Shown: piece by piece, positions 2,432 to 47,823 of the stretch
Position numbering within the stretch: position 1 is the stretch's first letter
How the letters are laid out: the number at the start of each line of letters is the position of its first letter
Origin: a virus
Direction: 5' to 3' (one strand)
Length of the DNA stretch: 48,438 bases
Virus record (IMG/VR): IMGVR_UViG_3300021440_000034
Coordinates: 1-48,438 of that record
The notes under the pieces: model-generated
Told to the model about the DNA's origin: nothing
Databases searched by the model: none
The model's input: only the letters and a program-made list of their open reading frames with translations
Translations under genes and position numbers: made by a program

Positions 2432-2440
2432 GGGCGTCTC

Positions 2441-3646: not shown

Positions 3647-3649
3647 GGT

Positions 3650-5271: not shown

Positions 5272-5272
5272 T

Positions 5273-22361: not shown

Positions 22362-23633
22362 TCAGCCCCCCACCTTCGTGGACTTCCTGCCGGTGAACTT
22401 CTCCCACCGCTGGAGGATGGTCTGGACGTACCTGGGTTCGAGTTCGATGCCGAAGCACCTGCGCCCGGTCTTCTCCGAGGCGATGAACTGCGGCCCGCTG
22501 CCGGCGAATGGCTCAAAGCAGACCTCTCCGCGCTGCAGGTGCTTCACGAGAGGAATCTCGAACAGCCGCGTCGGCTTCGGGGTCGCGTGGTTCAGCTCCT
22601 TGCGCTCGTTCTGCTGCACGCCGTCAATCTCCCACACCGTCGTCTGGGTTCGCTCGCCATTGCCTTCTCCGTAGTCGGGCGGCTGGTTGCCCTTCACCCA
22701 CCCCATGAAGCAGGGCTCGTGGCGCCAGTGGTACTGGCCGCGGCCGAGCAGGAGGGATGGCTTCACCCAGATGATCTGCCGATGGAGCACGACGTTTGCA
22801 GCAGCAGCAGCAGCAGCAAAGAACCCCTGGGTGAGATGTGCGTGCCAGAGGTACCACGCTGCGTCTGGCTTCAGCGCGTGCGCTGAAGCGGCCTTGAACG
22901 CCAGCTCCAAGAACGCCTGGAGTTGCGTGTCACGAAGTTCGTCGTTGGCGATCTTCGCCTTGGCCTTCGGCGCGTTCGCCCTTTCTGAGTTGTCGTAGCT
23001 CACCCCGTACGGAGGGTCAGTGTTCATCAGGCCGGCGCGAACGTCTCCCATCAGCCGCGCCACATCCTCGGGCTTCGTCGAGTCGCCGCAGAGCAGCCGG
23101 TGCTCTCCGAGGACGAACATGTCCCCAGGCTTCACCCACGACGTCTCCGGAACCTCGGGCTGCTCGTCGGGCTCGGGAGGCATCGAGTCGCGGAGGATCT
23201 TGTCCACGTCGTCGCCGTCGTAGCCGGTGCCCAACAACTGCTCGGGGCCAAGCTTTGCGAGGTCGACGAGGATGGACTGCAGCGCAGCGTCGTCCCAGCC
23301 ACCCAGCTCCACCAGCCTGTTGGCAGCGACGATGAAGGCCTCAGCCTCGGCGTCGTCCTTGGAGGACCAGCCGTGCTGTACCGGAACGCACCAGTGCCCT
23401 TCGTGGACCTCAACCCCAGGAGGGAGCGGCTGACCGTCCTTCTCCATCGCCATCAACGTCTCGACGCGCCCATGGCCCGAGACCAGCCGGCCAGTGCGCC
23501 CGTCGACCACCACCGCATCAGCGAAGCCGAAGCGCTTGATGCTCGCCTGGATGGCCCCGACGTCATGGTCCTTCGGGTTGCGGGGGTTGGCAGGAAGTGC
23601 CGACAGCGGGACGTATTCGATTCGGATCTTCAC
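22362..23633 (-). CDS. ParB-like domain fused to DNA methyltransferase
   Basis: A 423-residue protein. The N-terminal ParB/Srx-like part has LPANPRNPKDH (about 13-23) and SGHGRVETL (52-60, the GHR-type motif). A beta-class amino-methyltransferase follows: NTDPPYG (motif IV, DPPY at 206-209) and, near the C-terminus, FEPFAGSG (motif I, 373-380), with IELEPRYV after it. The order IV before I is typical of that class, and DPPY means N6-adenine or N4-cytosine. The GTG at 23633 overlaps the upstream stop and has GGAGG five bases before it; a longer frame to 23900 is rejected. Seven alanines (273-279) come from a GCA repeat. It could protect phage DNA from restriction or mark it. Target sequence unknown. 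Confidence 0.86.
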   Translation of the reverse strand: MKIRIEYVPLSALPANPRNPKDHDVGAIQASIKRFGFADAVVVDGRTGRLVSGHGRVETLMAMEKDGQPLPPGVEVHEGHWCVPVQHGWSSKDDAEAEAFIVAANRLVELGGWDDAALQSILVDLAKLGPEQLLGTGYDGDDVDKILRDSMPPEPDEQPEVPETSWVKPGDMFVLGEHRLLCGDSTKPEDVARLMGDVRAGLMNTDPPYGVSYDNSERANAPKAKAKIANDELRDTQLQAFLELAFKAASAHALKPDAAWYLWHAHLTQGFFAAAAAAANVVLHRQIIWVKPSLLLGRGQYHWRHEPCFMGWVKGNQPPDYGEGNGERTQTTVWEIDGVQQNERKELNHATPKPTRLFEIPLVKHLQRGEVCFEPFAGSGPQFIASEKTGRRCFGIELEPRYVQTILQRWEKFTGRKSTKVGG

Positions 23634-23872
23634 GGGAACCTCCGACGCCGCTCGTCGTACGCAGCCTGCGCGGTCTTCATCAGCGCGTCGATGTCCGGCT
23701 TGCAGTCCGGGCAGTAGCAGAGGTCGGCATCGGCGTAGTCGCCCTTGGATGTTCTCTGCACCAGCGTCACTGACCGCCAGTTCGTCGGGTAGTCCGGCCG
23801 CATCCCACCGACTGGCTCTGCCATGGCGGAGAACTTGCCGCACCCGTCGCAGGTGTATCCGATCGCTCTCAT
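23630..23872 (-). CDS. Small zinc-ribbon-like protein
   Basis: An 80-residue protein: MRAIGYTCDGCGKFSAMAE, then YADADLCYCPDCKPDIDAL and a helical end. C..C (residues 8-11) and C.C..C (about 53-58) suggest a zinc ribbon. The ATG at 23872 has AGGAGG four bases upstream. It is translationally coupled (GTGA) to the ParB-methyltransferase gene and may assist it. Family unknown. Confidence 0.6.
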   Translation of the reverse strand: MRAIGYTCDGCGKFSAMAEPVGGMRPDYPTNWRSVTLVQRTSKGDYADADLCYCPDCKPDIDALMKTAQAAYDERRRRFP

Positions 23873-23998
23873 GTTTCCTCCTGGGTTGAACTGCAGGCAA
23901 ACGACCCCTACGACTGGCTGGAGCACCGAGCCGCGGGGAGTCGGCGCGACTCGTCTCGGGAAGGAGGGAGGGCCGCGCAAGCGCAAGGTGTCACGACC
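23873..23998 (-). other. 126-bp gap with a short hairpin
   Basis: A noncoding stretch between two methyltransferase-region genes. It holds one perfect six-base stem, GAGTCG (23938-23943) with CGACTC (23947-23952), and a three-base loop. I see no clear promoter, T-tract terminator or gene here. Confidence 0.35.
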
Positions 23999-24553
23999 TC
24001 ACACATCGCGCAACATCCCCATCTGGGCAAACACCACAACCACTGAAGGGAATCGCGCAGATGACTTCGCGCCCTTCGCTTCGAACGACTGCCGGCCCCG
24101 GATGCGGACGGTCTCAAGGTCCCATCCGCCCATCATCGCGCGAGTGTGCGCGCCAAGATCAGACGTGAAGACGATGGCCGACCTCGGCCGGGTAAACCAT
24201 TCCACGTTGTCATGCCACCAGCCTTCGGCGGTGTGCCCAGGGACGAGGCAGCAGACGAGCCCGCTGGAGCCGTCAACGACCTCGCGTCTGGATGCGCGCA
24301 AGAACTTTTCAAGCATCCCGCGAGAGTAGGGCGGGTTCAGCCACACCCTCGGAGGCGCCACGCACATCTTGCCCCACCCATGCTGCGCCGACACCACGAG
24401 GGCGTTGTGCTTTTTCGTAAAGTAGAGCCCGCACTTTGCGTTGCGCTTCGTGGCCGCGGCATCGAGATCGAACGGACCATACCGCTGCAACAGCGCATCG
24501 AAGAGTGGTCGTGGCGTGGAGTACTCGTCCGACAGCGACAGGGCCGACTTCAT
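23999..24553 (-). CDS. Phage DNA N6-adenine methyltransferase (Dam-like)
   Basis: A 184-residue protein: DEYSTPRPLFDAL (residues 9-21) and FDLDAAA (28-34) in the SAM-binding part, and WLNPPYS (71-77), the NPPY catalytic motif of N6-adenine methyltransferases. This size and the W.TP..LFD...FDLD.AA...NPPY pattern match the phage Dam_N6A family. The target site cannot be read from sequence, although related phage enzymes often act on GATC. Six GATC sites cluster in this phage's initiator gene. It probably protects DNA from restriction. Confidence 0.86.
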   Translation of the reverse strand: MKSALSLSDEYSTPRPLFDALLQRYGPFDLDAAATKRNAKCGLYFTKKHNALVVSAQHGWGKMCVAPPRVWLNPPYSRGMLEKFLRASRREVVDGSSGLVCCLVPGHTAEGWWHDNVEWFTRPRSAIVFTSDLGAHTRAMMGGWDLETVRIRGRQSFEAKGAKSSARFPSVVVVFAQMGMLRDV

Positions 24554-26482: not shown

Positions 26483-26805
26483 TGGACACCTCTGGCCTTG
26501 GCCATCTCGAACTCCCTCACCGCCACTATGCCCTCCAGCCTCTTCGTCGCACGCTCGCGAGCTGCTTCGTAGCCATGCTTCGCGCAGTGCGCGACGAACA
26601 TCTCCAGCCAGAATCTCGCGGAGGGCTGGTTGTTCGTCTTTCGGTAGTGGCACTCCATGCAGAGGAGCCAGCAGGACTCAACGCCCTCGGCCCTGGCGCG
26701 CCCGAAGAAGTGATCTGTCTGCCCATAGTTTCCTGAGCCGCGGGAGCACGACTCGCAGCGTCCTCCGCTCCGCTCCTGCACCGCCTTCCACACGCGCTGA
26801 TTCAT
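26479..26805 (-). CDS. HNH-type endonuclease (candidate)
   Basis: A 108-residue protein. GRCESCSRG (residues 15-23), TDHFFGRARAEGVESCWLLC (about 30-49) and MECHYRKTNNQ give C..C...DH...C..C..H.....N, the usual order of small HNH proteins (metal-binding Cys pairs, catalytic DH, then N). Small HNH genes in phages assist packaging or are homing-like. Here it sits beside the helicase, not the terminase. ATGA overlap with 26802. Confidence 0.66.
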   Translation of the reverse strand: MNQRVWKAVQERSGGRCESCSRGSGNYGQTDHFFGRARAEGVESCWLLCMECHYRKTNNQPSARFWLEMFVAHCAKHGYEAARERATKRLEGIVAVREFEMAKARGVQ

Positions 26806-28307
26806 GCTCCCTCCAGGGGGAGCGCCGCCTGGGGTGGCTTGATGGCCTCCTCTGCTTCGGCCTTCGCCTTCGCCGCGAGTTGGTCAGCGGCTGCCTTCAT
26901 TTTCGCCCGACGCTCCACCACCGCAGCGTCGCGAGCCTCGGCTGCCTCCTTGCGCTCGGACGATGCCTCCTGATCAAGGTTGACCAACCTTCCGCCCCCA
27001 GGCTCGATGAGTCCCGCAGCCGGGATGCGCTCGAACTCGATGGTCTCGCCGGCCTCTGCAAGCTCGTTGCCCTTGAGCATTGTGCACCGCCACGAGGAGT
27101 TCTTCTTCCAGAGCCCGAGCATCAGCCGAGCCTTCTGGTCTCCAGCTCGACCTCCGCGCATGGAGTGCAGCGCAGGTGGCCCCGGCCTCTTCGACGCCCC
27201 TTGCTCGACGTTGGTGTGCGAAAGGAGAACCACTGCCACGCCCTCGTCGATGGCCCACTGTCGGAGGTCCTCAAGGCCTTGAGCGAGAAGCTCAAACGGC
27301 TGTTCGAACTTCGCGCCGGTGCGTAGCTCGAACTGGCTGGCGTTGTCGATGAAGATGCATCCCACACCGTGCCGGCGCTTCCATGCTGCGCAGCGACGGA
27401 CCAGCTCACTGATGCGGATCTTGTTCAGCTTGAAGGTCGTCACCCGAGCCAGCACGTCATGGGCGGCCTGTCCCGCCGCCTCGATGGTGGCCCGCTGCTC
27501 GTCGCTGCGCTTGCCCCACCCGACCTCCCGAAGAGGCACGCCCGAATCGGCCGCCAGCCACCGGCGCGTCAGCCAAGAGGTCCCGTCCTCTAGGCCGAAG
27601 ACACCCACCCGAAGGTTGGGGTCCAGCGCGAGCTGCGCGCGGATGCTGGAGGCGATGAAGCCGGTCTTGCCCGAGCCCGGTTCCCCGGCGACGATGGTGA
27701 GGCTATGAGGATACCCGCCGATCATCTCGTCGAGGATCTTGATGCCAGTAGGGACGAGCAGGGACTTGCCGGCCCTTTCATTCCGCTCCCAGGCGTCGAG
27801 GAGTTCGATGACGTCTGTGGCTGCGGTGGCGTCGGGTGCTTCCTCCTGCAGGAGGTTCCGCGCAGCGCCCAGCGTTTGCCACACCGCATCTGGTGCAATT
27901 CCGCGCGAGTCGATGGCATCGGCCGTCGACCGAAGTAGCGCCGAGAGCCCCAGGGCCCTACGAGCCGCACGGAAGTCGTCTAGCACCTGGGAGAGTTGCT
28001 CCGGTGTGACGACGTTCTCCAACTCCACCTGCGTAATGAAGGCCTCGTCCTGCGGCCCGAATGCGCGAGCCAGTCTCCCCGCGCTGATGACAGCCAGCGC
28101 GGACACGCTGCGCTCTTTCTCGACGAGGAAGCGCACGATGCGCCAGATGGCCTTCCCGCGGCTGCTCGTGAACGACTCCTCGCTGAGGCCGCTCGCCGCC
28201 AGCATCGCTTTGAGGTGTGCGCCGTTGTCGAGGAGTGCTCCGAGCACCTTCGGCTCCAGTGCTTCGGGCTGCTCGAACTTTCGAATGGGAACGATGTCTG
28301 CGCTCAT
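26802..28307 (-). CDS. dnaB: Replicative DNA helicase, DnaB-like
   Basis: A 501-residue protein. An N-terminal helical domain (residues about 12-165) is followed by a RecA-like ATPase: PTGIKILDEMIGGYPHSLTIV, Walker A GEPGSGKT (208-215), GVFGLEDGTSWLTRR, and CIFIDNASQFEL (Walker B). VVLLSHTNVEQG and a LMLGLWKKNSSWR segment lie further on. A charged C-terminal coil (EASSERKEAAEARDAAVV, then RRAKMKAAADQLAAKAKAEA) is an extension that may be an interaction tail. It overlaps the initiator gene by four bases, like lambda O/P or other initiator-helicase pairs. It unwinds phage DNA for host polymerase. Confidence 0.87.
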   Translation of the reverse strand: MSADIVPIRKFEQPEALEPKVLGALLDNGAHLKAMLAASGLSEESFTSSRGKAIWRIVRFLVEKERSVSALAVISAGRLARAFGPQDEAFITQVELENVVTPEQLSQVLDDFRAARRALGLSALLRSTADAIDSRGIAPDAVWQTLGAARNLLQEEAPDATAATDVIELLDAWERNERAGKSLLVPTGIKILDEMIGGYPHSLTIVAGEPGSGKTGFIASSIRAQLALDPNLRVGVFGLEDGTSWLTRRWLAADSGVPLREVGWGKRSDEQRATIEAAGQAAHDVLARVTTFKLNKIRISELVRRCAAWKRRHGVGCIFIDNASQFELRTGAKFEQPFELLAQGLEDLRQWAIDEGVAVVLLSHTNVEQGASKRPGPPALHSMRGGRAGDQKARLMLGLWKKNSSWRCTMLKGNELAEAGETIEFERIPAAGLIEPGGGRLVNLDQEASSERKEAAEARDAAVVERRAKMKAAADQLAAKAKAEAEEAIKPPQAALPLEGA

Positions 28308-29197
28308 GGCTGCACCAGTTCTTCGGTCGGGCTCTGCTGGTCGTTCGCCTTGCTCCAGTCGGACGCGTCTCTCAAAGCCTTCCTCCAGACACCATCAGCA
28401 GCGAAGTACCGAAACGGCCACGGAGGTGTCTTACCCGCTGGCCCCGACATCCGGAAGTAGGCTTGGCAGAGATCGGTGAAGGCAAGGCGCCTAGGAGCGC
28501 CATCGGCGACGCTGCCCACCATTCGGTCGATTGAAACGTTGATGAACGCCGGGGAGTAGTTCTCGACGCCGGCCTCCGCCGTCTCCCAGCCTGGGAGCCC
28601 AGCCTCTTGAAGTGCGAGCCGCCGGTCGACCTGAAAGATCTCGTGGAAGAACTCCTCCTGCCAGCTTTTGGTTCGCTCGGGAGGGGGGGGCTCAGGGATG
28701 CCTGGGAGGCTCGACTGGGCTTCTTTTTTAGGGCCTTTCTTCCGCGGAGGACCAACAAGTGATCCTTGATCCTCGATCCTTGATCCTCGATCCTCGATCC
28801 TGTCGGAAGATTCCGGCGAGTCTCCGGAGACACTCCGGAGGATTTCGAGTGGTTTGCTTTCAGGATCAGTGGGTTGCGGGTAGCGACTTTTACCGGGGTG
28901 CGACACCTGCTGATGCTCACTCCAACCTTCGAGCAAACCAAAACGCCCTTTAGGGTGTTCGTAGGTGCGGATGAGGTGAGCGTGAGCTAGCTCGGAGATC
29001 GCGCGTCGGGTGATGCGGAGGCGGTCCCGATCGAACGGAAAGATGGCCCCGGCGAGCCCCGCTTCGTGGGCCGGAAACAGCCCATGATCGTCGGCCTGGG
29101 TGATGAGTCCAATGAAGAGGAGCCGGGCATCTCGCGAGCACTGCCCGAGCTTCTGGTTGCCCCAAATTTCCGGCTTGATCGAACGAATGCGCGGCAA
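28304..29197 (-). CDS. Replication initiator-like protein
   Basis: A 297-residue protein starting at TTG 29197 with GGAGG five bases upstream; an open frame to 29410 without a good site is rejected. The N-terminal domain (about 2-100) has PRIRSIKPEIWGNQKLGQC, RDARLLFIGLITQADDHGLF and an RRAISELAHAHLIRTYE winged-helix-like part, common in phage initiators and DnaD/O-like proteins. A Ser/Pro-rich linker encodes a seven-residue repeat (RIEDRGS, RIEDQGS). The C-terminal part (SFYFR-like: AFTDLCQAYFRMSGPAGK) may recruit the helicase. Directly upstream of dnaB. Confidence 0.7.
   Translation of the reverse strand: MPRIRSIKPEIWGNQKLGQCSRDARLLFIGLITQADDHGLFPAHEAGLAGAIFPFDRDRLRITRRAISELAHAHLIRTYEHPKGRFGLLEGWSEHQQVSHPGKSRYPQPTDPESKPLEILRSVSGDSPESSDRIEDRGSRIEDQGSLVGPPRKKGPKKEAQSSLPGIPEPPPPERTKSWQEEFFHEIFQVDRRLALQEAGLPGWETAEAGVENYSPAFINVSIDRMVGSVADGAPRRLAFTDLCQAYFRMSGPAGKTPPWPFRYFAADGVWRKALRDASDWSKANDQQSPTEELVQP
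28720..28831. promoter_or_regulatory. Candidate origin inside the initiator gene
   Basis: Within 112 bases lie a TTTTTT run (28724-28729), six direct seven-base iterons (28761-28802) and a perfect 12-bp palindrome GTCTCCGGAGAC (28820-28831). Lambda's origin also lies in the middle of its initiator gene O and contains iterons. Iteron plus palindrome plus T-rich tract inside an initiator gene makes an origin here plausible, not shown. Confidence 0.45.
28761..28802. repeat. Six 7-bp direct repeats, GATCCT(T/C/G)
   Basis: GATCCTT, GATCCTC, GATCCTT, GATCCTC, GATCCTC and GATCCTG follow each other without a gap (42 bp). As seven is not divisible by three, the frame cycles and 21 bases encode a seven-residue repeat in the linker of the initiator. 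Each unit contains GATC. Confidence 0.93.
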
Positions 29198-29580: not shown

Positions 29581-30770
29581 GCCTCACACGCAGACAGCTC
29601 GCGCTCCGTCGCGACAAGATTGGGGCATCGGAGGTGGCCGCACTGGCTGGGCTGTCGAAGTGGGCTAGCCCGATCCAGATCTACGAGGCCAAGGTGGAAG
29701 GTGTCGCAAAGGAGACGACGCTCCAGATGGAGCTGGGGCACCTGCTGGAGGAGCCGGTGGCGACGCTCTACGCGAGGCGCACCAGAACGTGGCTGCGGGT
29801 CGCGCACTCCCTGGCGTCGGAGGAGTTCCCGATGGCTCTGGCCACGCCGGATAGGGCGGTGTTCCAGTCGAGGGTTTCGGAATTGGCTGCTTCCAAGAAA
29901 CTCGGGCTCGCGCAGTTTCGACAGGCAGAGCGCGGCCTGGAGTGCAAGACGACCAACTGGCGAGAGCGGGGCCGCTGGGGCGAGGAAGGGAGCGATCAAG
30001 TCCCTGACGAGTACGCCATTCAATGCATCTGGGGCATGGGCGTCTCGGGAGTGCGGCGGTGGGATCTCGCGGTGCTGGTCGACCATGACGAGTTCCTCAC
30101 CTACTCCATCCCATTCGATGAGGAGCTGTTCCGTGGGCTCTACGAGATCGCGGCGCGCTTCATGGTGGACCACGTCCTTCCGCATCGTCCTCCTCCCGTC
30201 GACGCGACCGAGCACTACGCCGAGTTCCTCGGGAGGGCTTGGCCGACCAACTCACAGGACCTCGTCGCCGCAGAGTTGGAGATGGAGGTGCTGGCCGTCG
30301 AGTTGGCGAAGCTCGCCGAGGTGGAGAAGCGCGTCGAGTTGGCGAAGCGCATCAGGCAGAACGCCATCAAGGCACGCATCGGCGAGGCTGGAGGGATGTC
30401 CGGCGGCTTCGGTAAAATCTACTGGCGTCGGAACAAGCCGAAGCGAACGCTCGACGCCAAGGCGGCGCTCGGCGAGTTGACGACGCTGGCCAAGCTCATC
30501 ATCAACGTGCTGCCCGATGGTGAACTCAAGACGAAGTCGGCCGCGCAGGTGGAGCACATCATCGAAGCGCACACGAGGGAGGAGCCAGGGGCCAGAGTCT
30601 TTCGGCCCTATTGGGCTCCGCAGTTGAAGGAGCAGATCGGAAGCCTGGGGGAGACGCTCGCGCAGCTCGAACGTCAGACCGCTGTCGTAGACGAGCAGGA
30701 CCGCACCGCCGACGGCATCGGCGCAGCAGAGCAGACCGGAGAAGTTCAACCGCAAGGAGATGCACCATGA
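29577..30770 (+). CDS. YqaJ-type recombination exonuclease
   Basis: A 397-residue protein. GASE (16-19), ATPDR with Asp92 and LECKTTN with Glu122 and Lys124 are the metal-binding and catalytic residues of YqaJ/lambda-exonuclease-type nucleases (G.S...PD..ECK). PDEYAIQCIWGMGVSG is the following helix. A helical C-terminal extension (LEMEVLAVELAKLAEVEKRVE) is normal for the viral YqaJ group. It resects double-strand ends for the annealase encoded next, with an ATGA overlap. A lambda-Red-like pair. Confidence 0.84.
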   Translation: MSLTRRQLALRRDKIGASEVAALAGLSKWASPIQIYEAKVEGVAKETTLQMELGHLLEEPVATLYARRTRTWLRVAHSLASEEFPMALATPDRAVFQSRVSELAASKKLGLAQFRQAERGLECKTTNWRERGRWGEEGSDQVPDEYAIQCIWGMGVSGVRRWDLAVLVDHDEFLTYSIPFDEELFRGLYEIAARFMVDHVLPHRPPPVDATEHYAEFLGRAWPTNSQDLVAAELEMEVLAVELAKLAEVEKRVELAKRIRQNAIKARIGEAGGMSGGFGKIYWRRNKPKRTLDAKAALGELTTLAKLIINVLPDGELKTKSAAQVEHIIEAHTREEPGARVFRPYWAPQLKEQIGSLGETLAQLERQTAVVDEQDRTADGIGAAEQTGEVQPQGDAP

Positions 30771-31858
30771 GCAACGAAAACCAGCAGGGCCTCGCACGCG
30801 TCGCGCCGAGGGGAATCGTCGGGTGGGAGTCGCCAGAGTGGACCGAGGAGCGCATCGAGTTGATGCGGAAGGCCATCGCCCCGCCGACAGCGACACCAGC
30901 AGAGGTTGAGTTCTTCGTCGCGTGGTGCAAGCGCACCGGGCTCGACCCCTTCATCAAGCAGGCCTACCTCGTCGAGCGAAGCGCTCAGGACGCCCAGGGC
31001 AACTGGTCGAAGAAGCACGAGCCGCTCGCTGCCGAGACTGGCATGGCCGCGCGTGCCGACGCGCTGCCCGACTACCGCGGCATGCGGGCGGCTGCCGTCT
31101 ACGCCGGCGACGTCTTCGCGGTCGATGAGGAGACTCAGACCGTCTCTCACAAGTGGGACCTCGCCTCCCGCGCGAAGGCTGGCAACAAGGTGATCGGCGC
31201 CTGGGCGCACGTCCAGCGCGAAGGTCGCGTGGTGCCCATCACCTACCTCCCCATCGAGACTCGCATCGCGCGCAAGCGAGACGGGAGCGCCACGAAGTTC
31301 TGGGCGACGGACCCGGCCGGGATGCTGGTGAAGTGCGCTCGGGCTGATGCGCTGCGGCGGGCCTACCCCAACATCTTCGGAGGTGTCTTCATCCGAGAAG
31401 AGATGAGCGACGAGCGGGAGGTGGAAGCCGTCGAGCAGCCGCGGCGCATCGTCGACGCCGGCATCGGGAACCTCAAGGCGGTGGTGGCGAAGAAGGCCGA
31501 GGAGACCCGCGCGCCTCCGCCGGCGGAGCCCGCCCAGGTCGATCCCAACCCCGCCCCGCCCTCCCCGCCGAAGCCCGAGGAGAAGAAGGCCGAGGCCCCG
31601 CCGCCGGCGAAGGCTCCCGTCCTCCCCCTGCCCCTCGCTGAGGCCGTCTGGCGCTTCGGGGAGAAGAAGGGCCAGCCGCTGGCCCAGGCCACCGGCGTCG
31701 AACTGGCCGAGGCCAAGGCGAAGCTCCAGGGCGAGCTGAAGGCCTCCCCCAAGGCCCCCTGGCGCGACCAAGCGGTGGCCGCCCTGGCGGAGCTTGGGGC
31801 GGAGATCGAGCAGCGGGAGGCCGCCATGGCCGCCCAGGAGCCCGGTTCCGAGGGGTAA
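30767..31858 (+). CDS. bet: Bet/RecT-type single-strand annealing protein
   Basis: A 363-residue protein; the ATG at 30767 has AAGGAG six bases upstream. FFVAWCKRTGLDPFIKQAYLV (residues about 46-66; the F...CK.TGLDP...Q.Y motif), then an AETGMAARADALPDYRGMR part and MLVKCARADALRRAYPNIFGG (W..DPAGML.KCA.A.ALR.A.P) are signature blocks of the Bet family. A Pro/Ala-rich linker (about 235-290) leads to a helical C-terminal domain rich in Ala/Glu. It anneals complementary strands made by the exonuclease. The C-terminal linker could bind a host SSB. Strong family call. Confidence 0.86.
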   Translation: MSNENQQGLARVAPRGIVGWESPEWTEERIELMRKAIAPPTATPAEVEFFVAWCKRTGLDPFIKQAYLVERSAQDAQGNWSKKHEPLAAETGMAARADALPDYRGMRAAAVYAGDVFAVDEETQTVSHKWDLASRAKAGNKVIGAWAHVQREGRVVPITYLPIETRIARKRDGSATKFWATDPAGMLVKCARADALRRAYPNIFGGVFIREEMSDEREVEAVEQPRRIVDAGIGNLKAVVAKKAEETRAPPPAEPAQVDPNPAPPSPPKPEEKKAEAPPPAKAPVLPLPLAEAVWRFGEKKGQPLAQATGVELAEAKAKLQGELKASPKAPWRDQAVAALAELGAEIEQREAAMAAQEPGSEG

Positions 31859-31874
31859 CGGCTGCCCGTTTTCT

Positions 31875-31940
31875 CCCCAACTGGCCCCGAATCGGCGCCC
31901 GAAACATGGGCCTGATTCGGGGCTGTTGCGTTGGTTGGGG
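31875..31940 (+). promoter_or_regulatory. Long imperfect hairpin after the annealase gene
   Basis: Nested inverted repeats: CCCCAAC (31875-31881) with GTTGGGG (31934-31940), CCCCGAATC (31885-31893) with GATTCGGGG (31914-31922), GCCC (31897-31900) with GGGC (31908-31911). The tip loop is GAAACAT. It lies in the 195-bp gap 31859-32053 and has no T tract right after. Likely an RNA structure ending or tuning transcription into the next genes; a protein-bound site is another option. Confidence 0.5.
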
Positions 31941-32053
31941 ATTTTCTCCGCAGCTGCCCGGCTGGCCCTGGGGGCGGCCTCCCCAGACGCCGAGTTTCGA
32001 TGCCCAAACTTGGCGCGGTTACGGGTGGCACAGCACGCGCACTGAGAGCAGGC

Positions 32054-32440
32054 ATGACCAACAAGCCCACCGCCCGCCCACCCCTCACCACCCCGAAGCC
32101 GCAGCCCGGATTTGACCCAGTCTACCGGGCCGACAAGTCCCAGATCTACATCATCGGCCTCGACGCCAGCGGGGTGGTGAAGGTCAAGATCTACGGCCGC
32201 GATGTTCGGGCCGCAGGCAAGCCCCCGAGCGACTTCCGCGCCACCGCGGCCTCGGCCCACCGCCTCGCAGCGGCCTGCATCGATCGCGGACTCTGGGTGC
32301 ACACCACAAACGAGACCTGGGAGGTCGATGGCCGCAACGTCGCCCTGGTCTTCTGGGAGCCCACCGCCGCAGAGCTTGAGGACGGGACCATCGAGACCGT
32401 CGTCGAGACGATGAAGGAATCCATCCGCAGCCTCATTTAA
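32054..32440 (+). CDS. Unknown early protein
   Basis: A 128-residue protein starting MTNKPTARPPLTTPKPQPGF with a Pro-rich unstructured beginning. It then has an alpha/beta part (YRADKSQIYIIGLDASGVVKVKIYG; FRATAASAHRLAAACIDRG; ETWEVDGRNVALVFWEP; ETVVETMKESI). The ATG at 32054 is chosen over the open-frame start 31931, which lies in the hairpin region. High GC. Family not recognised. Confidence 0.6.
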   Translation: MTNKPTARPPLTTPKPQPGFDPVYRADKSQIYIIGLDASGVVKVKIYGRDVRAAGKPPSDFRATAASAHRLAAACIDRGLWVHTTNETWEVDGRNVALVFWEPTAAELEDGTIETVVETMKESIRSLI

Positions 32441-32467
32441 ACCACGCATCAACCACTGGAGCCAACC

Positions 32468-33796
32468 ATGCAGACCCCTCGCCCCACCCCCAGCAGCAAG
32501 TTTTTCGTCCAGACCGCCGAGCCCCTCCATGGCACCGTTCGCCAGACGGTGCGGCCGGTCATCCCGGAGCGCAGCCAGACCAGCCTCGGGCGCGACGCGG
32601 CCCTTCCGGTCGACACCGCGGCCCCCATGGGCGCCAGGATGCCCTGGCACGCCGTCTACAACGCCTGGGCCACCCGCATCACTGCGGAGGAGCTGGTCGA
32701 CGTCCAGATCGCCTACTACCGCACCCCCACCGCCACCGCGCCTCACGGGCTCTTCCTTCGCGAGACGGACGGGGCCTTCTGCCGGAAGGGCGGGGCCGAC
32801 GGGGCCCAGGCCTACCACCCGCGCGCCTGGGCGCAGCTGGTGAGCCTCCTCCTGCAGGAGTGCCCCTCCAAGCCACGCGGCGCGGCAGAGCCCTACCGCT
32901 GGCTCGGCCCGGCCACCCGCGCCGAGGTCTTCGCCCACCTCGTCGAGCGCAGCGAGCGCAAGGAGGGCCCCGGCCACGAGATCCTCCTCCGCAGCCACAT
33001 CGACCCCCGCTCGGGCCTTCGCGCTCTGCGCGCGGTGGTCAGCGGTCGGCACTCGGGCATCCACTTCGACGACGCCTCCCTGATGAAGGCCCTGGACGGG
33101 TGGATCGACCCCTCGGCCGGTGCGAGCTGCTGGCGCGGGGTGGACGAGACGGTCGGCCACGCCATCCTCGACACCGCTGGCGACTGCCGAGCGGTCCTCC
33201 ACTGGCGCAACAGCGAGACGGGCGCGGCCTCCCTGAGCTTCGGAGCCGGCTGCTACATCACCACCCTCGACGCGGTGGTTCGCGACGGACAGGTCCAGCG
33301 CAACGTCGACACCGAGGAGGTGCTGCAGCGCTCGGTCACCATCACCAGCGCGAACGACGCCACCCGCCGCAACCACACCCTTCCGCGCGCCAACCGCACC
33401 GAGGCCGAGCGGGCGGAGATCGCGAAGCAGCGCATGAGCGAGGACATCGCGAAGACGACCGACGCCAGCCGGAACCTCTGCCGCGCCTGGGGCAAGGCCC
33501 TGGAGACCTTCCTTCCTGGCTGGGCCACCCCGCAGCCCGAAGACCGGGCCACCTTCGCGCTCGTCCTCCTCGACGCCATCGCAGACCGCTCGGCGCGCAG
33601 CATCACCCGCGACGACCTTGAGGCCCTCAAGAAGGTGCTGACGGACGAGGACCGGCTGCGCTCGCTGCCCTTCGGCTCCGCTGCGCAGATCGCCGGCGCC
33701 TGGGCGGTGCTGGCCTCCCAGCAGGTGACGCACGAGGCCGCCGGCCACTACCAGATCGAGGCCGGCCGGTGGGTGCTGGAGGGCTTCGGCGGCTGA
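32468..33796 (+). CDS. Large early protein, weakly DUF932-like
   Basis: A 442-residue protein. LRALRAVVSGRHSGIHFDDA (residues about 180-200; L.ALRAVVS.R....DD..L...L) resembles the central block of DUF932-type phage/plasmid proteins, as do SLSFGAGCYITTLDAVV and an RRNHT segment near 295. The C-terminal third is helical. The middle has the highest GC of the window. The ATG at 32468 follows a CTGGAGCC leader. DUF932 proteins have unknown roles, sometimes linked to plasmid-like replication. Low-moderate confidence in the family. Confidence 0.6.
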   Translation: MQTPRPTPSSKFFVQTAEPLHGTVRQTVRPVIPERSQTSLGRDAALPVDTAAPMGARMPWHAVYNAWATRITAEELVDVQIAYYRTPTATAPHGLFLRETDGAFCRKGGADGAQAYHPRAWAQLVSLLLQECPSKPRGAAEPYRWLGPATRAEVFAHLVERSERKEGPGHEILLRSHIDPRSGLRALRAVVSGRHSGIHFDDASLMKALDGWIDPSAGASCWRGVDETVGHAILDTAGDCRAVLHWRNSETGAASLSFGAGCYITTLDAVVRDGQVQRNVDTEEVLQRSVTITSANDATRRNHTLPRANRTEAERAEIAKQRMSEDIAKTTDASRNLCRAWGKALETFLPGWATPQPEDRATFALVLLDAIADRSARSITRDDLEALKKVLTDEDRLRSLPFGSAAQIAGAWAVLASQQVTHEAAGHYQIEAGRWVLEGFGG

Positions 33797-33808
33797 CCTC
33801 GGCCACTC

Positions 33809-33829
33809 GCGGGAGGGCCCACCTCCCGC
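33809..33829 (+). terminator. Perfect GC-rich hairpin after 32468-33796
   Basis: GCGGGAGG (33809-33816) pairs fully with CCTCCCGC (33822-33829) around a five-base loop, 13 bases after the stop. There is no T tract, so it may be Rho-assisted or a 3' stabiliser. Confidence 0.45.
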
Positions 33830-33857
33830 TACCACCACCCGCAACAAAGAGGAGCAC

Positions 33858-34082
33858 ATGATCGACATCGCCCCGAGACTCTGTAGCCGATGCAGCCGGC
33901 CCAAAGGCCACCCAGGAGAGCACACGCCAGCCATGGCAGACCGCGTCTACGAGAACGCAGCGGAACTTTTTTGCGCGCTGGAGACGCTCGTCGACTCCAT
34001 TCGGCCGCCGCTGGACGCGCAAAGCATCGTCGCCAGGGCCATCGCGCTCCGGGTGATTCAGAAGTGCAGAGGAGGTGGGTGA
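33858..34082 (+). CDS. Small Cys-pair protein
   Basis: A 74-residue protein starting MIDIAPRLCSRCSRPKGHPG after an AGAGGAG site. CSRC..PKGH..EH (residues 9-22) is a possible zinc element; the rest is helical (YENAAELFCALETLVDSI). It overlaps the next gene (TGATG). Function unknown. Confidence 0.56.
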   Translation: MIDIAPRLCSRCSRPKGHPGEHTPAMADRVYENAAELFCALETLVDSIRPPLDAQSIVARAIALRVIQKCRGGG

Positions 34083-34605: not shown

Positions 34606-36336
34606 ATGGACGAGAAAGTGCGAAAGCTTCTGATCAAGGACGTGTCCGACAAGTTCGACGCCGTGCTGGCTTCGAAGGCTGGCGAGAAACCAAAGCCCTT
34701 CACCGAGACGCTGCAGGCCATCGTCACCGGAGAGACAGACGAGGCTCGCAAAGAGCGCGAGGAGAAGGTGGCCGCCCAGGTCGGCAGCGTCTTCGGGGAC
34801 CCATCTCCGGTGCGCATCATCGCCGTCGACGACCTCTCTGAGTCGCCGACCAATCCTCGCACCAGATTCGAGGGGCTCGATGAGCTCGGGGCCTCAATGC
34901 TGGCCGGCGTTCTGGTGCCCCTCATCGTTCGCCCGAAGTCGAACCAGCCGAGCGACAGCTACGAGATCATCGCTGGCCACCGGCGCTTCAGGGCCGCGAA
35001 GCTCGTCGGCATCTCGCACCTCCCGTGCGACGTCCGGAGCTTCACCGATGTGCAGGTGGTTGAAGCCCAGGCCATCGAGAACCTGCAGCGGGTAGACCTC
35101 GACGCCCTGGAGGAGGCGGCCAGCTACGAGTCGCTGCGCAAGCACGACTGGAGCGTTGAGCAGATCGCTTCCAAAACTGGACGAAGCCCCTCCCTGGTTC
35201 GCAGCCGCCTCCGCCTCCTGACGTTGGCCCCAGAGGCCATGGCGGCCCTGCGCGACGGTGTCCTGCCGCACTCGGTCGCCGTCCCGCTCTCCCGCATCCC
35301 CCATGCGAAACAGGCCGAGGCGGTGAAGGAGTTCAAGGCCGAGCAGAAGAGCCAGGGCAGCGTCAACGCCAGACAGGCCATCGACTGGCTACAGCGGGAC
35401 TTCACGCGCAACCTGAAGGGCGCCAGCTTCGACATCAAGGACGAAATGCTCGACACCGTGGCAGGCGCCTGCTCCACGTGCCCGAAGAACTCGGCCAACG
35501 GACAAGCTGGGTTCGAGGATCTCCAGGGCGCCGGGAAGGTGTGCACCGACGTCCAGTGCTTCAACGGCAAGGCCGAAGCAGCATGGGTGCAAACGTCTGC
35601 GAAGCTCAAAGAGGAGGGCTACGAGGTCCTCTCCAAGGCCGAGGGTGCCGAGTTGTTCCAGCACGGACACCTTGGCTATGACTCCAAGTTCGTCGAACTG
35701 TCTGTGGTCAACAACGAGGATCCGAAGCGGCGAAGCTGGGGCGAGTTGGTGGACAAGATGCCAGAGGACCAGCGCCCGATGGTGGTTGCTGCACCGGATC
35801 GCGACCTCAAGATTCACCACCTCGTCGAGCGCAAGAAGGTCGTCGAGAAGCTGGCAGACGGCGGAACCAAGTGGGCCCAGGAGAAGGTGGCAGAGAAGAA
35901 GAAGGCCACCAAGGAGCGGGTCAAGGAGCGAGAGCACAAGGAGGCCATCGAGTTGGAGAACGAGGTCTTGGCTGGACTCGCCTCCAGCATCGCCAGCAAG
36001 CTGATGCGGGTGGAGACGCTCAAACCAGTCTGGCACCTGCTGGCCTCGTACCTCGCCTACGACTACCTCCCAGCCGGCGTGCTCAAGGCGATGGGGCTCA
36101 AGGCCGATGACGTGCTGGAGGAGATCGACAAGGGCAAGGACTCAGAGTTCTTCGCGTCCCTGGTGCTGGCCATGTCGATGATTGAAGCGCCAGATCGCCA
36201 GGACGAAAAGCTCTTCGGACCATACATGAACAAGCTCGCCGGGCACTTCGATCTGAAGCTCAAGGACATCGAGGCTGCCAAACTGGAGGAGCGCGCCAAG
36301 GCCGCTGGCGAAGTGAAGCCCAGGAAGACCAAGTAG
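34606..36336 (+). CDS. ParB/RepB-like DNA-binding protein
   Basis: A 576-residue protein. SPTNPR (80-85), then GHRRFRA (124-130; the GxxRxxA CTP-binding motif of ParB) and ENLQRVDLDALEEAASY follow. A helix-turn-helix (WSVEQIASKTGRSPSLVRSRL, about 182-202) ends the core, as in ParB. It continues with Cys pairs (ACSTCPKN, CTDVQCFNG) and a long helical part rich in Lys/Glu. Phage ParB-like proteins of this kind exist with unknown role; a partition function needs a ParA, which I do not see here. It may clamp DNA or coat it. Leader CCAAGGGAAGGAACACCA. Confidence 0.78.
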   Translation: MDEKVRKLLIKDVSDKFDAVLASKAGEKPKPFTETLQAIVTGETDEARKEREEKVAAQVGSVFGDPSPVRIIAVDDLSESPTNPRTRFEGLDELGASMLAGVLVPLIVRPKSNQPSDSYEIIAGHRRFRAAKLVGISHLPCDVRSFTDVQVVEAQAIENLQRVDLDALEEAASYESLRKHDWSVEQIASKTGRSPSLVRSRLRLLTLAPEAMAALRDGVLPHSVAVPLSRIPHAKQAEAVKEFKAEQKSQGSVNARQAIDWLQRDFTRNLKGASFDIKDEMLDTVAGACSTCPKNSANGQAGFEDLQGAGKVCTDVQCFNGKAEAAWVQTSAKLKEEGYEVLSKAEGAELFQHGHLGYDSKFVELSVVNNEDPKRRSWGELVDKMPEDQRPMVVAAPDRDLKIHHLVERKKVVEKLADGGTKWAQEKVAEKKKATKERVKEREHKEAIELENEVLAGLASSIASKLMRVETLKPVWHLLASYLAYDYLPAGVLKAMGLKADDVLEEIDKGKDSEFFASLVLAMSMIEAPDRQDEKLFGPYMNKLAGHFDLKLKDIEAAKLEERAKAAGEVKPRKTK

Positions 36337-44205: not shown

Positions 44206-44590
44206 GGCGGCGCTCCTCTGCTCTCTGAACTTCCCTGATGATAGCAGTCTCTTGCTGCATCACGGCCAGCACCTGGGTGGCTCGCGCTGGCCACGCATCC
44301 CAGACGCCTCCGCTGAAGGCCGGTGCCTCGTGGCCTGCGACGTGGAAGTAGAAGTCGAACTCCCTGCGCGTCTTCTCCATCAGCTCCGCCGGCGTGGCCA
44401 TGGCCACCTCGCGCGGCAGCTTGTCGAGGACGAAGCGCGGCTGTGGCGTGGCGTTGCCGGCCGGCGGCTCGTAGCCGACGAAGCCGTGCCGCCTATCTGC
44501 CACCCAGCTCACCGGGCGTCCGTCTGGGCGCTGTCCTGCTCGACGCTCTGGGCGCGCGTACCAAAGTCCCCACCAGAGCGCCACTTGGAG
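44198..44590 (-). CDS. Tail assembly chaperone, T-like frameshift extension (allele B)
   Basis: The counterpart of 1650-2057. The frame is conserved with allele A from before the overlap onward (WRDLRAFLQVALWW, RPERRAGQRPDGRPVSW, DRRHGFVGYEPP and FSGGVWDAWPARA), which is what a true coding frame after a -1 shift would show. The open frame extends farther upstream (to 44953), but that part is Arg/Gly-rich shadow sequence of the G-like frame. The fusion product would be about 259 residues. The end overlaps the tape measure start by eight bases. Confidence 0.72.
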   Translation of the reverse strand, partial: LQVALWWGLWYARPERRAGQRPDGRPVSWVADRRHGFVGYEPPAGNATPQPRFVLDKLPREVAMATPAELMEKTRREFDFYFHVAGHEAPAFSGGVWDAWPARATQVLAVMQQETAIIREVQRAEERRRG

Positions 44591-44976
44591 AAATGCGCGA
44601 AGGTCCCTCCAAGCTCGTTGTACTCGCGTACGGTGCGAGTCATCTCCAGCAGGTTGAAGAGTCCAGCCATCGAGAGGCACAACTCCACATACTGCTCCAG
44701 CGTGGCGACTGGCTTGCCGTCCACCAGCAGCGGCTCCGCGCCCATGCGGACGAAGGGGGCCAGCGCATCCGTCATCGGCTTCACCGAGCGCGAGAAGTCC
44801 TTGGCGTCGTTGCTGGCATTCATCGCGGCCACCTGCGCGTCCTGAAACGCGACGAGCTGGGCCTTGGTGAGGCTGGCGTTGACCTCCAAGTAGAAGCGCT
44901 TGGCCTGCGGCTGGGTGAGGTTGTTGCCCAGCCTGGGCTCCAGTCGCTCCCATCTGTCGATGCTGATGTCTGGCAT
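44509..44976 (-). CDS. Tail assembly chaperone, G-like (allele B)
   Basis: A 155-residue homologue of 1976-2431. Shared features include R.ER..P.LG.NL, a YLE..A.L.KAQL motif, VDG.PV.TLE.YV.LC, and LGGTFAHFSKWRSGG near residues 123-137. It starts at an ATG at 44976 and lies ten bases after the tail tube stop. The role is the same as for allele A. Confidence 0.75.
   Translation of the reverse strand: MPDISIDRWERLEPRLGNNLTQPQAKRFYLEVNASLTKAQLVAFQDAQVAAMNASNDAKDFSRSVKPMTDALAPFVRMGAEPLLVDGKPVATLEQYVELCLSMAGLFNLLEMTRTVREYNELGGTFAHFSKWRSGGDFGTRAQSVEQDSAQTDAR
44590..44610 (-). promoter_or_regulatory. Candidate -1 frameshift site (allele B)
   Basis: Same arrangement as at 2057-2077: GGAGGG (44610-44605), an 11-base spacer, TTTC (44593-44590). 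It is kept between two alleles whose flanks have diverged, which supports function. Codon 129 of the G-like gene is the TTC. Confidence 0.5.
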
Positions 44977-44985
44977 GGCTCCCTC

Positions 44986-46197
44986 TTAGGTCAGCGTGAT
45001 GGTGAACATGTCGTTTGAGCCCGAGTCCCTGATGCGGAAGGCGATGTCCACCAGCGCGATGTCATTGGCGGTGTCGGGCACCTTCGGCGGGATGACCTCG
45101 CAGTTGGCCGCGGCCAGCGTGACGATGCTGCCGGTGCCGACGCCCTGTACGATGGAGACGGCCACGTTCTTCCGCTGCACTGCCTTCCCCAGCATCGACA
45201 CGTCGCTGGTGCCCTTGAGCTGCACCTTCGCAGAGAGGTTGGCCTCGTAGCGCACTTCCTTGGGGCCCTGGACGTAGGCGCTTCCAGTCTCGGCCGCGCG
45301 CAGCATGAGGCCCGTCTTCACGTCGAGCTTCCAGTTGAGGGCCGGGATGGCCACGCCGTCGATGGTGACGGTGGCGGTGGCCTCGCTGATGGGGCTGCCG
45401 GTGTAGGCGATGCCGGTGGGGATGTAGGGCTGCATCGGCACCGCGCTGTGCGCCACGCCGGTGCTGCCGAGCTGGGCGCGTGCGATGGTGGTGGAGGTGC
45501 TGCCGTAGCCGATGTTGGTGCGGCTGCTGATGAGGATGATCTCCGACTCGATGAGGTAGTAGCCGGCGTCGAGCCGGTAGCTCTCTTCGGCGGTGTGCGT
45601 CAGCGTGGTGACGACACCGGACGCGAGCGTCACCGAGAGGAGGTCGCCCTGGGTGTTCTTCCCGACGCCCTGCCCAGAGAAGGTCGCCTCCACTTCCTTG
45701 TCTCCGCCCTCCAGCGTCATCTGGGAGACGACGCAGCCGCGCAGCGTCTCGGCGAAGTAGGTGGACGGGCTGGTGCCCAGCAGGCGCGTGAAGCTCGCAG
45801 AGGCGAAGTCCGCGGCCGTCTCCAGCGGGGTGGGGCTGGGCGCGATGACGACGTTGGTGGCCGCGTTGACGGTCTGCTTGAGGCCGGCGGCCTTGTAGAG
45901 CACCGCCTCCAGCGGCACCGCGTCGACTGCGCTGCGGCTCTTCAGGGTGGTGCCAAGGGTGAATGGGAGGGGCTGGTAGCGGCCCTGCACCCAGCCGGTC
46001 TGCATCCCGCGGCTGATGGCCCTGTCCTTCTTGGCGCGCACCACCGGATTCTCGGCGCCGCCGAGGTCCACCTTGGTGAACTCTCTGGCCTGGGCCGCGT
46101 AGGCGGCGACGTTGGCGGGGGTGGGAGTGGTGCCGAAGGTCGTCTCAGACACAGCGAGGAGTCGGAGGTCCCAACTGTTGATGGGGTTCGTTGCCAT
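44986..46197 (-). CDS. Major tail tube protein (allele B)
   Basis: A 403-residue copy of the tail tube protein at 2441-3646. The first 116 codons are identical in DNA; the remaining 287 residues are homologous but differ at many positions, mostly conservative, with a few changes in length (APSPTPLETAADF against SPSATPIESGDF). Because both copies begin in identical DNA, each cassette makes its own C-terminal tube part that may need to match its own chaperone and tape measure. Confidence 0.82.
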   Translation of the reverse strand: MATNPINSWDLRLLAVSETTFGTTPTPANVAAYAAQAREFTKVDLGGAENPVVRAKKDRAISRGMQTGWVQGRYQPLPFTLGTTLKSRSAVDAVPLEAVLYKAAGLKQTVNAATNVVIAPSPTPLETAADFASASFTRLLGTSPSTYFAETLRGCVVSQMTLEGGDKEVEATFSGQGVGKNTQGDLLSVTLASGVVTTLTHTAEESYRLDAGYYLIESEIILISSRTNIGYGSTSTTIARAQLGSTGVAHSAVPMQPYIPTGIAYTGSPISEATATVTIDGVAIPALNWKLDVKTGLMLRAAETGSAYVQGPKEVRYEANLSAKVQLKGTSDVSMLGKAVQRKNVAVSIVQGVGTGSIVTLAAANCEVIPPKVPDTANDIALVDIAFRIRDSGSNDMFTITLT

Positions 46198-46200
46198 GGT

Positions 46201-47583
46201 TCAAGCTCCTGCAGGTCGCGCGAAGACTCGCGCAGTGATTGTGAGTGAGGCCGTGTCGTAGAGTACGTTCTCGCCTTTGAAACTGAAAGCCTTGCCGGGG
46301 ATGAAGACGTTGGTAACCTGCACCAGCATCACGTCGCCGAAGCCCTCGTGGCCGGCGTAGCGGCCCCGCAGCGTGTGCAGCACCTCTCGCACCGCACGCA
46401 CCACCATCGACACGCCCTCGCGGCTGCGGTGGGTGCCCATTCCAAGCTCAGGCTTGAAGCAGAGAATGGGGATGGTGACGAGGTACTCGTACCGGCGGAG
46501 CGGCTCAATCTGGACAGACTGCCTCTCGTCGAGGATGAGCCAGAAGGCCTGCCCAGTCTCAGGCGAGGCCATCGGCCAGCCGTCCATCACCCCGGCGTTG
46601 GTGGGCGCCACGAGGGCGCTGTAGAGCACCGTCTCGCCGCCGGGGCTCCAGCCGAGGATGAGGTTGGCTCCAGTGGTGTCGGCGAGGGCACAGACGACGC
46701 TGGGGGCGTCCTGCGCAGGCTTTGCGCTGGCCGTGAGAATCACCCGCCCATCCCTGTCGAAGGTAGCCACGAGGCCCGGCGGACTGGCGCTGTTGATGTC
46801 GAAGGCGACCTGGGCCGCAGTGCGAGTGCCGGCTGTCATCGCGCAGGTGGTGGGCGACGATCCGTCCCTGTTGATGCCCAGCTTCAGCGAGGTGGCGGCA
46901 GGGAAGGTGAAGGGCTCGACGTAGGCAGACTTCAGCACCGCGGGCCGCAGGGTGTTCAGCTCCGCCACCTTGGCCGGCAGGAACATCAACAGGTGCTCTC
47001 TGATGGCCTGCACCGCGATGTCCTCGTAGCCGAGGCCGTCTGAGGTAGCCGCAGCACCAGCCACCGGGTAGGGCCAGCCAAAGCCGCCGCTGTACTGCAG
47101 AGGGTAGGCACCGGCCGGCGCGTCGAGGCGGTAGGCCACGCCGGTGGTGAGGTCCGACGCCGACGGCGTGAAGACGTAGAGGCCAGTTGTCGGCGAGGTG
47201 ATGGCCGGCGGCGTGCGCGCGTTGAGGCTGGCGTCCTCGTAGACAGGCAGCGTTGGGGCTGCGCCACTCCACAGTGCGCCTTGGTTGTCTTCCAGCTCGA
47301 TGCAGCCGAAGGGGGCGCCTGGGACAAACTGCGCCCCGTAGGTGCGCCTCGGCATGAGCTGCAGCGCACCTCCCACGTCGTTGTCGATGAGGTAGACGAC
47401 TCCGCGCGCAAGGTCTGCGTCTGGAATCCAGAAGGAGAAGAGGCCGCCGCCGAGGTTGAGGATGGTGGGCTGCGCCAGCGCGGTGCCGTCCCGCAGGCCG
47501 TAGAAGAGCCACGCAGGTGTCGCCGATGGCGCGGGGGTGCCATCACCAGTCTCGACCAACCACGGTGGTAGGAGCACGGCCAT
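46201..47583 (-). CDS. Multidomain neck protein (exact copy of 3650-5032)
   Basis: The same 460-residue protein as at 3650-5032; sequence and start are identical. If the window is a circular genome read past its origin, this is not a second gene but the same one. If the genome is truly duplicated, there are two copies. Confidence 0.6.
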   Translation of the reverse strand: MAVLLPPWLVETGDGTPAPSATPAWLFYGLRDGTALAQPTILNLGGGLFSFWIPDADLARGVVYLIDNDVGGALQLMPRRTYGAQFVPGAPFGCIELEDNQGALWSGAAPTLPVYEDASLNARTPPAITSPTTGLYVFTPSASDLTTGVAYRLDAPAGAYPLQYSGGFGWPYPVAGAAATSDGLGYEDIAVQAIREHLLMFLPAKVAELNTLRPAVLKSAYVEPFTFPAATSLKLGINRDGSSPTTCAMTAGTRTAAQVAFDINSASPPGLVATFDRDGRVILTASAKPAQDAPSVVCALADTTGANLILGWSPGGETVLYSALVAPTNAGVMDGWPMASPETGQAFWLILDERQSVQIEPLRRYEYLVTIPILCFKPELGMGTHRSREGVSMVVRAVREVLHTLRGRYAGHEGFGDVMLVQVTNVFIPGKAFSFKGENVLYDTASLTITARVFARPAGA

Positions 47584-47822
47584 CAGGGCACCGGGTCAGG
47601 AGCCAGAACGATGTCTGGCAGTGAGTCGAGATGGGCCTTGAACTGGGCCTGCTTGGTGGCCGCGAAGTCGGCCGGCGCCGCCGCGTCTTGCGCGTCCCGC
47701 TTGGCCAGCCACTCCTGAAGCACGTTCACGGCGTCGCCGATTTGCACGCGCATCTGCTCGCGAGTGGTGGCCGCCTTGACTGCGGTGATGAGATCCTTTG
47801 CCGACTGTCTGCCGATGCCCAT
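47583..47822 (-). CDS. Small neck-region protein (exact copy of 5032-5271)
   Basis: Exact duplicate of the 79-residue protein at 5032-5271, with the same ATG context. See the note on the repeat. Confidence 0.58.
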   Translation of the reverse strand: MGIGRQSAKDLITAVKAATTREQMRVQIGDAVNVLQEWLAKRDAQDAAAPADFAATKQAQFKAHLDSLPDIVLAPDPVP

Positions 47823-47823
47823 T

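Follow-up and report, generated by a model that had tools for sequence, protein, structure and literature searches.

A two-part repeat array in the linker of a phage initiator gene as a probable intragenic replication origin

Replication origins located inside initiator genes are already known. The origin of phage lambda and of Stx phages lies in the middle of gene O and combines iterons with a neighboring opening region (PMC7466680), which in lambda has almost all of its purines on one strand (PMC5043065, PMC7466680). In the RepA_N systems of pSK41 and pTZ2162, the origin boxes are central in the rep gene and bound by the N-terminal domain of the initiator, which can do without the linker that the origin DNA encodes (PMC5703833). 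DnaA-trios are short repeats that lie near the initiator boxes at the opening site (PMC10797057).

GATC-bearing repeats at an origin are found in P1 oriR and in Vibrio cholerae oriII, and in this respect both resemble the locus described here. In P1 oriR, tandem 7-bp GATC repeats stand beside longer iterons; this origin lies outside repA, and P1 encodes its own Dam. The P1 origin requires methylation, and the RctB sites of oriII contain GATC and must be methylated for binding (PMC2865523), so that a coupling of a phage Dam to its own origin, which the preliminary description of our locus had regarded as new, would not be without precedent. The unwinding element of oriII contains [G/A]ATCA repeats (PMC10797057). 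In the open-access text that we searched, no literature was found on the origin of the initiator family treated here, and this text contains no description of the two-part layout, of the rule tied to one initiator residue, or of the GGA ladder reported below.

The analysis covered one IMG/VR virus record, here called the window, which has 48,438 bases and a GC content of about 66%. As it carries an imperfect end repeat (1897-5887 versus 44433-48438, 92% identity, offset 42,551), we read the window as probably representing a circle of about 42.5 kb or a permuted genome, with strain variation at the assembly joint. A replication initiator gene occupies 28304-29197 on the minus strand, with the stop at 28304 and the likeliest start, a TTG codon, at 29197, 5 nt downstream of a GGAGG. 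Profile matches over the N domain place its product among the PHROG replication initiation proteins (phrog_2149, E 1.1e-27; phrog_1408, E 1.4e-25; phrog_16167, E 2.4e-15). The protein does not match the curated family of the lambda O protein; no Pfam family, phage O included, was obtained at E ≤ 0.05 and no NCBIfam at E ≤ 0.01. The initiator consists of a predicted N-terminal winged-helix domain, a disordered linker, and a variable C-terminal part. Structure prediction modeled the N domain with high confidence (block means above 90 for residues 11-120), and in this model residues about 8-100 look like a winged helix. PDB searches gave general winged-helix matches only; the initiator and Rep entries 4pt7, 4pta, and 5kbj (Z 6.5-6.9) were found among many other winged-helix folds. 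Residues are counted from the codon at 29200, so that residue 100 corresponds to residue 99 if translation starts at the TTG.

The next gene, which overlaps the stop of the initiator gene, encodes a DnaB-like helicase (26802-28307, minus strand; phrog_19, E 3.1e-33; PF03796, E 8.9e-19). It is followed by genes for a Dam-family N6-adenine methyltransferase (23999-24553, minus strand) and an N6/N4 methylase (22362-23900). The Dam-like enzyme that had been noticed earlier was confirmed by matches to PF05869 (E 1.4e-20) and phrog_111 and by the NPPY motif in its translation.

Two adjacent repeat arrays, A and B, are located in the linker region of the initiator gene, with A preceding B on the sense strand of the gene. 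Part A (28808-28840, minus strand) comprises the 11-bp units CTCCGGAGTGT, CTCCGGAGACT, and CGCCGGAATCT, which we propose as initiator-binding iterons, and a fourth, decayed unit extends into B. The octamer CTCCGGAG is found at 28840-28833 and 28829-28822, with two decayed A units after it. The perfect 12-bp palindrome of the preliminary description, GTCTCCGGAGAC (28820-28831), lies within this array and corresponds to the core of the second A unit plus its flanks. Nowhere else in the window do two TCC(n)GGA sites lie at a distance of 9-12 bp, and only two strict TCCGGA cores are left in the linker. The 11-bp periodicity was reached by 15 of 5000 synonymous-codon shuffles.

Part B (28760-28801, minus strand) comprises six GGATCNN heptamers on the sense strand, which on the other strand read seamlessly as TGATCCT, TGATCCT, CGATCCT, TGATCCT, CGATCCT, and CGATCCT. 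None of 5000 synonymous-codon shuffles that kept the protein reached the 7-bp periodicity of this array, and none reached its six GATC (mean 1.84). Since 7 bp do not amount to whole codons, a protein repeat fails to explain this period. The array had the highest TRF score of the window (77; runner-up, an 18-bp repeat with 76), and it also forms the longest GGA ladder, with 6 steps compared to 4 for the next one outside the array. On its far side, B is adjoined by a 50-mer with a GC content of 0.46 (28721-28770), tied for the lowest in the window, which includes the TTTTTT run at 28724-28729 (AAAAAA when read along the sense strand). The repeats, the run, and the palindrome are thus present in the linker part of the gene as originally noted. 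A GATC elsewhere in the window is joined by at most one other GATC within 42 bp, and outside the array the motif is scarce (97 found versus 219 expected from a Markov estimate). This scarcity is strongest at 1-21 kb and 37-48 kb; CTAG is also strongly under-represented (10 versus 38 expected).

A scan of viral contigs for five GATC at 7-bp spacing returned 63 stretches. In 7 of these (L006, L019, L020, L021, L029, L032, and L058), the array occupies the linker of a same-family initiator. Other initiator-like proteins also contain GATC arrays, namely those of L016 and L046, which match phrog_2447, that of L055, with a weak match to phrog_428, and those of L013, L061, and L040, which lack a PHROG match and are termed initiator-like for their layout alone. 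Since such a scan selects for GATC, we collected unselected sets by alignment of the N domain, a retrieval that was chosen because single-protein scans of viral_contigs with the initiator or the helicase of the window gave no close relatives. The unselected sets were the best 80 of 538 viral loci and the best 80 of 348 genome loci from several phyla, and two later scans supplied the best 80 of 578 and the best 80 of 573 relatives. In total, 328 related initiators were obtained, of which 113 were dropped by dereplication and 215 remained. The retrieval patterns of the two later scans included residue 100 and not the DNA core.

Nearly all of the best 80 of 538 viral loci have short tandem repeats in the same linker, written in other letters. 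The layout common to the family is a part A of sites 10-11 bp apart with a palindromic core and a part B with GGA every 5-8 bp. In the relatives, the 10-11-bp units upstream of B have TCGCGA, TCGNCGA, TCANTGA, or TCCGGA as their cores, and the B units read GGAAG, GGAAA, GGAACAG, GGATCAG, GGATCAA, GGAGCAG, or GGACCTA, with GGAAG, GGAACAG, or similar letters in most of them. The GATC spelling is uncommon: three or more GATC spaced by 7 bp are present in 7 of the 207 unselected rows among the matches listed. Conservation in relatives, by which the preliminary description had proposed to check its iterons, hence holds for the array in the linker but not for its GATC. Judged from these letters, the GATC heptamers are this phage's spelling of the GGA-repeat element B, and GATC would occur in the array because B tolerates several units, GGATCNN among them. 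In P1 oriR and oriII, in contrast, it is GATC itself that matters.

In the first nonredundant set, GGA-to-GGA distances of 5, 6, and 7 bp occurred 379, 77, and 153 times in the linkers versus 21, 26, and 34 times in the C region. Periods of 5, 7, or 8 stood out from dinucleotide shuffles (p ≤ 0.01) in the linkers of 38/53 viral and 43/70 genome rows among the matches listed, compared to 0/54 viral and 1/71 genome rows for the N-domain region and 2/50 and 5/64, respectively, for the C region. Periods of 10 or 11 passed the same threshold in the linkers of 40/53 viral and 45/70 genome rows among the matches listed. As the N-domain region also passes this second test (26/54 viral and 16/71 genome rows), where A-type cores are indeed present and amphipathic helices may add to the signal, periodicity alone is unsafe as evidence. 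Under synonymous shuffling, 129 of 207 rows were significant at p ≤ 0.01 for periods 5/7/8, 124 for 10/11, and 86 for both, again among the matches listed. A cores were spaced by 11 bp in 209 cases and by 10 bp in 46, with multiples of 22 bp (46 times), 33 bp (21 times), and 21 bp (19 times). Among the matches listed, 169 rows have both parts by our rule; A is on the 5' side in 163 of these, on the 3' side in 2, and tied with B in 4, and the gap between A and B has a median of 13 with quartiles of 12 and 23 (n = 168); 34 of 214 scored rows had no B by our rule. The sense strand of B is 0.864 purine versus 0.504 and 0.537 elsewhere in the gene, a difference that is partly by construction because B is defined by GGA.

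The letters of the A core follow a single residue of the N domain. With Asp or Glu at residue 100, the core is TCG..CGA; with Asn, it is TCA..TGA; and with Ser, it is TCC..GGA. The window encodes Ser at this position (28901-28903, minus strand), which predicts the TCC core present in its A array. Class labels and the rule, based on the motif HQxx[D/N/S], were derived from the first 133 rows. With the linker scored, 159 of 160 scorable rows fit among the matches listed, and 55 of the 215 had no scorable core. The 52 scorable rows fetched later are the fairer test, as they were obtained after the rule had been formed, and 51 of them fit. The only discordant row, L341, also holds TCGCGA sites. 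When the first 560 bases of the genes were counted, the 145 Asp rows had 722 TCG(n)CGA versus 43 TCC(n)GGA and 25 TCA(n)TGA sites, the 49 Asn rows had 228 TCA versus 38 TCG sites, the 14 Ser rows had 50 TCC versus 31 TCG sites, and the 6 Glu rows had 28 TCG sites.

Column 100 of the alignment predicted the third base with a leave-one-out accuracy of 0.994, compared to 0.881 for the next best column and a baseline of 0.694. Column 50 predicts whether the core has 6 or 7 bp (0.962), but it is more entangled with the tree. A tree built without column 100 requires a minimum of 18 changes of the residue and 15 of the core. Where pairs on its supported branches were independent of one another, they were concordant in 4/4 cases for N and, in nearly all pairings, in 3/3 cases for S, with sign tests that were not significant singly (p 0.125 and 0.25, respectively). 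Of all scorable Asp/Glu rows among the matches listed, L077, which has Asp and TCGCGA, comes closest to L118, L094, and L131, which have Ser and TCCGGA; the contig of L077 is 69% identical to the N domain of L131. The pairings of an acid with C:G, Asn with A, and Ser with G are chemically reasonable. Because residue 100 matches the third base of the A core, the comparison strongly suggests that the initiator binds the A sites through its winged-helix domain. The heptamers, which had been taken for the initiator iterons, are not supported in this role, as it is the A sites and not the GATC units that covary with the DNA-binding domain.

The initiator and its array also occur in named phages and in plasmid records. 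Gene 61 of Mycobacterium phage Fishburne and gene 74 of Arthrobacter phage Persistence both have Asp, TCGCGA cores, and GGAACAGG repeats. Gene 74 of Job42 (Asn) has the GGAACAGG ladder with A sites off the strict pattern, and Mx9 has a different initiator. For another mycobacteriophage repA, the origin was suspected within or just upstream of the gene, and no repeats were found (PMC7157519). Circular plasmid records of 40-54 kb from Klebsiella and Enterobacter likewise contain the gene with both A and B. Their initiators combine Asn with TCA..TGA cores, and in the two Klebsiella records the next gene is annotated as replication protein P.

Taken together, the initiator gene of the window probably contains an origin of the lambda/pSK41 type, in which A would provide the true iterons and B the adjacent opening element. 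We infer that replication starts here because of the position in the linker, the adjacency of helicase or loader genes, the precedents of lambda and pSK41, and the occurrence in plasmid records. Of the lambda-like origin claimed in the preliminary description, the location inside the initiator gene is supported, since most related initiators carry arrays at this place in the linker and the low-GC 50-mer at 28721 lies next to the array, but a role of the GATC heptamers as iterons is not. The GC skew did not point to this site, since the cumulative extremes on the 42,551-base circle fell at 2501 and 17751 and not at about 28.8 kb; the sign also reverses locally near 29 kb, but this is where the genes switch direction.

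The window resembles lambda in that its putative iterons and putative opening region are at mid-gene in the initiator gene, that the neighboring gene encodes a helicase or a helicase loader, and that B is GGA-rich on the sense strand beside A, reminiscent of the purine-asymmetric opening region of lambda. It differs from lambda in that the proposed opening element is a GGA ladder and not AT-rich, and in that the sites are about 11 bp apart. The lambda iterons are longer than these units of about 11 bp. With pSK41, the locus shares the position of the boxes in the center of the rep or initiator gene; unlike RepA_N proteins, however, the initiator has no sequence link to that family, and its fold match is a general winged-helix one (4pt7 with Z 6.9, tied with many). 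Like DnaA-trios, B consists of short repeats near the proposed initiator sites, but the trios are three-base repeats bound by DnaA, whereas B is made of 5-8-bp GGA repeats in phage initiator genes.

The order on the sense strand, A sites 11 bp apart followed by GGA repeats 7 bp apart and a short low-GC stretch, would permit the following sequence of events. The N-terminal winged-helix domain would bind the A sites, which would all be on one face of the helix, and the resulting complex would strain the DNA and open it at B and the adjoining low-GC stretch. Opening is proposed for this segment because the GGA-rich B lies beside A, as in lambda, and the low-GC 50-mer lies beyond B. In this process B might serve as double-stranded DNA, as a single strand to which initiator or helicase binds, or as a flexible spacer. 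The helicase from the overlapping gene (26802-28307) would then be loaded at the opened DNA. We tentatively extend this to a widespread class of phage and phage-plasmid origins in which one residue sets the third base of the core and a GGA ladder at a fixed distance programs the opening, a generalization that may well fail but deserves consideration. If true, the unwinding element would be coded in sequence and not simply AT-rich, and it would be read by the initiator or the helicase in a role comparable to that of DnaA-trios.

The arrays could in principle be operators for repression or fine adjustment of the initiator gene by its own product, with the replication origin located elsewhere. 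A-type cores also cluster in the coding DNA of the N domain (first 285 nt), and their letters switch with residue 100 as well, which makes binding along the gene plausible; these cores could therefore partly serve autoregulation, and it is possible that they reflect either such regulation or a longer origin. However, the most regular array lies in mid-gene in the linker and is nearly always followed by a GGA array at a fixed distance, which would be odd for an operator, and in lambda and pSK41 it is the origin that occupies this position (PMC7466680, PMC5703833). We thus consider pure operator function unlikely and an intragenic origin the better reading of the same sites.

An origin controlled by methylation, in which the Dam-like enzyme (23999-24553) would methylate the six GATC and thereby license or silence initiation, was suggested by the presence of six GATC within 42 bp of an otherwise GATC-poor genome, by the enzyme itself with its PF05869 and phrog_111 matches and NPPY motif, and by the existence of methylation-dependent origins (PMC2865523). 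The nearest syntenic relative among the matches listed, G006 (initiator 37%, helicase 30%, ParB 37%, and N6/N4 methylase 28% identical), has GATC heptamers and, like the window phage, a phrog_111 enzyme, without a PF05869 match at the cut-off. Yet G006 shows no GATC depletion (546 found versus 504 expected), and the GATC spelling is uncommon among B arrays, as shown above. Coupling between the origin and Dam was also not supported as a general rule, as PF05869 was found in 2/15 records with a GATC array versus 2/25 without, and phrog_111 in 5/15 versus 3/25 (Fisher p 0.13). Among 7 additional records with a GATC array, which include many short fragments, none had phrog_111, giving a pooled 5/22 versus 3/25. 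Methylation control of this origin is improbable, although a coupling may exist in the window phage and G006, and the heptamers are better understood as one spelling of B.

Slippage might also have lengthened a neutral or selfish microsatellite of heptanucleotides within a permissive linker. This would fit the observation that most of the 63 GATC stretches lie outside initiator genes (e.g., L027, L036, and L048), and disordered linkers tolerate repeats. Neither the strict order and spacing relative to the A sites, nor the occurrence at the same place with different letters in relatives, nor the residue-base match of the neighboring A array would be expected from slippage, and we regard this explanation as very improbable. 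That the repeats are a recombination joint for swapping C-terminal initiator domains between phages is scarcely credible as the sole explanation, as it leaves the residue-to-base match and the spacing unaccounted for, although it could hold in addition, given that the arrays border the conserved N domain and very different C-terminal parts such as a DnaT domain in Klebsiella.

With the origin reading, an odd repeat in one metagenomic phage leads to a rule that locates the likely origin in hundreds of relatives, among them phages, prophages, and phage-plasmids of proteobacteria, actinobacteria, and planctomycetes. The match of residue and base is a prediction that can be tested by gel shift, and the rule could yield compatibility groups for phage-plasmids and account for the repetitive look of initiator linkers. 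It also advises caution, as clusters of GATC should not be taken for methylation switches unless relatives have been compared.

Some side aspects of the loci may be added. In L058 (10739-11803), an initiator of the family appears, by eye, to have an HNH-nuclease-like insert between the N domain and the GATC array. The initiator-like family of L013 (3013-4287) and L061 (5323-6612) has tandem GTATCCGATAC palindromes followed by GGATCCC heptamers, a two-part layout that is possibly convergent with that of the window. In the window itself, a 1062-aa open frame on the minus strand (30746-33934) has no PHROG or Pfam match and may be spurious. A ParB-like protein with ParB_N and HTH domains is encoded at 34606-36336, suggestive of a phage-plasmid life style.
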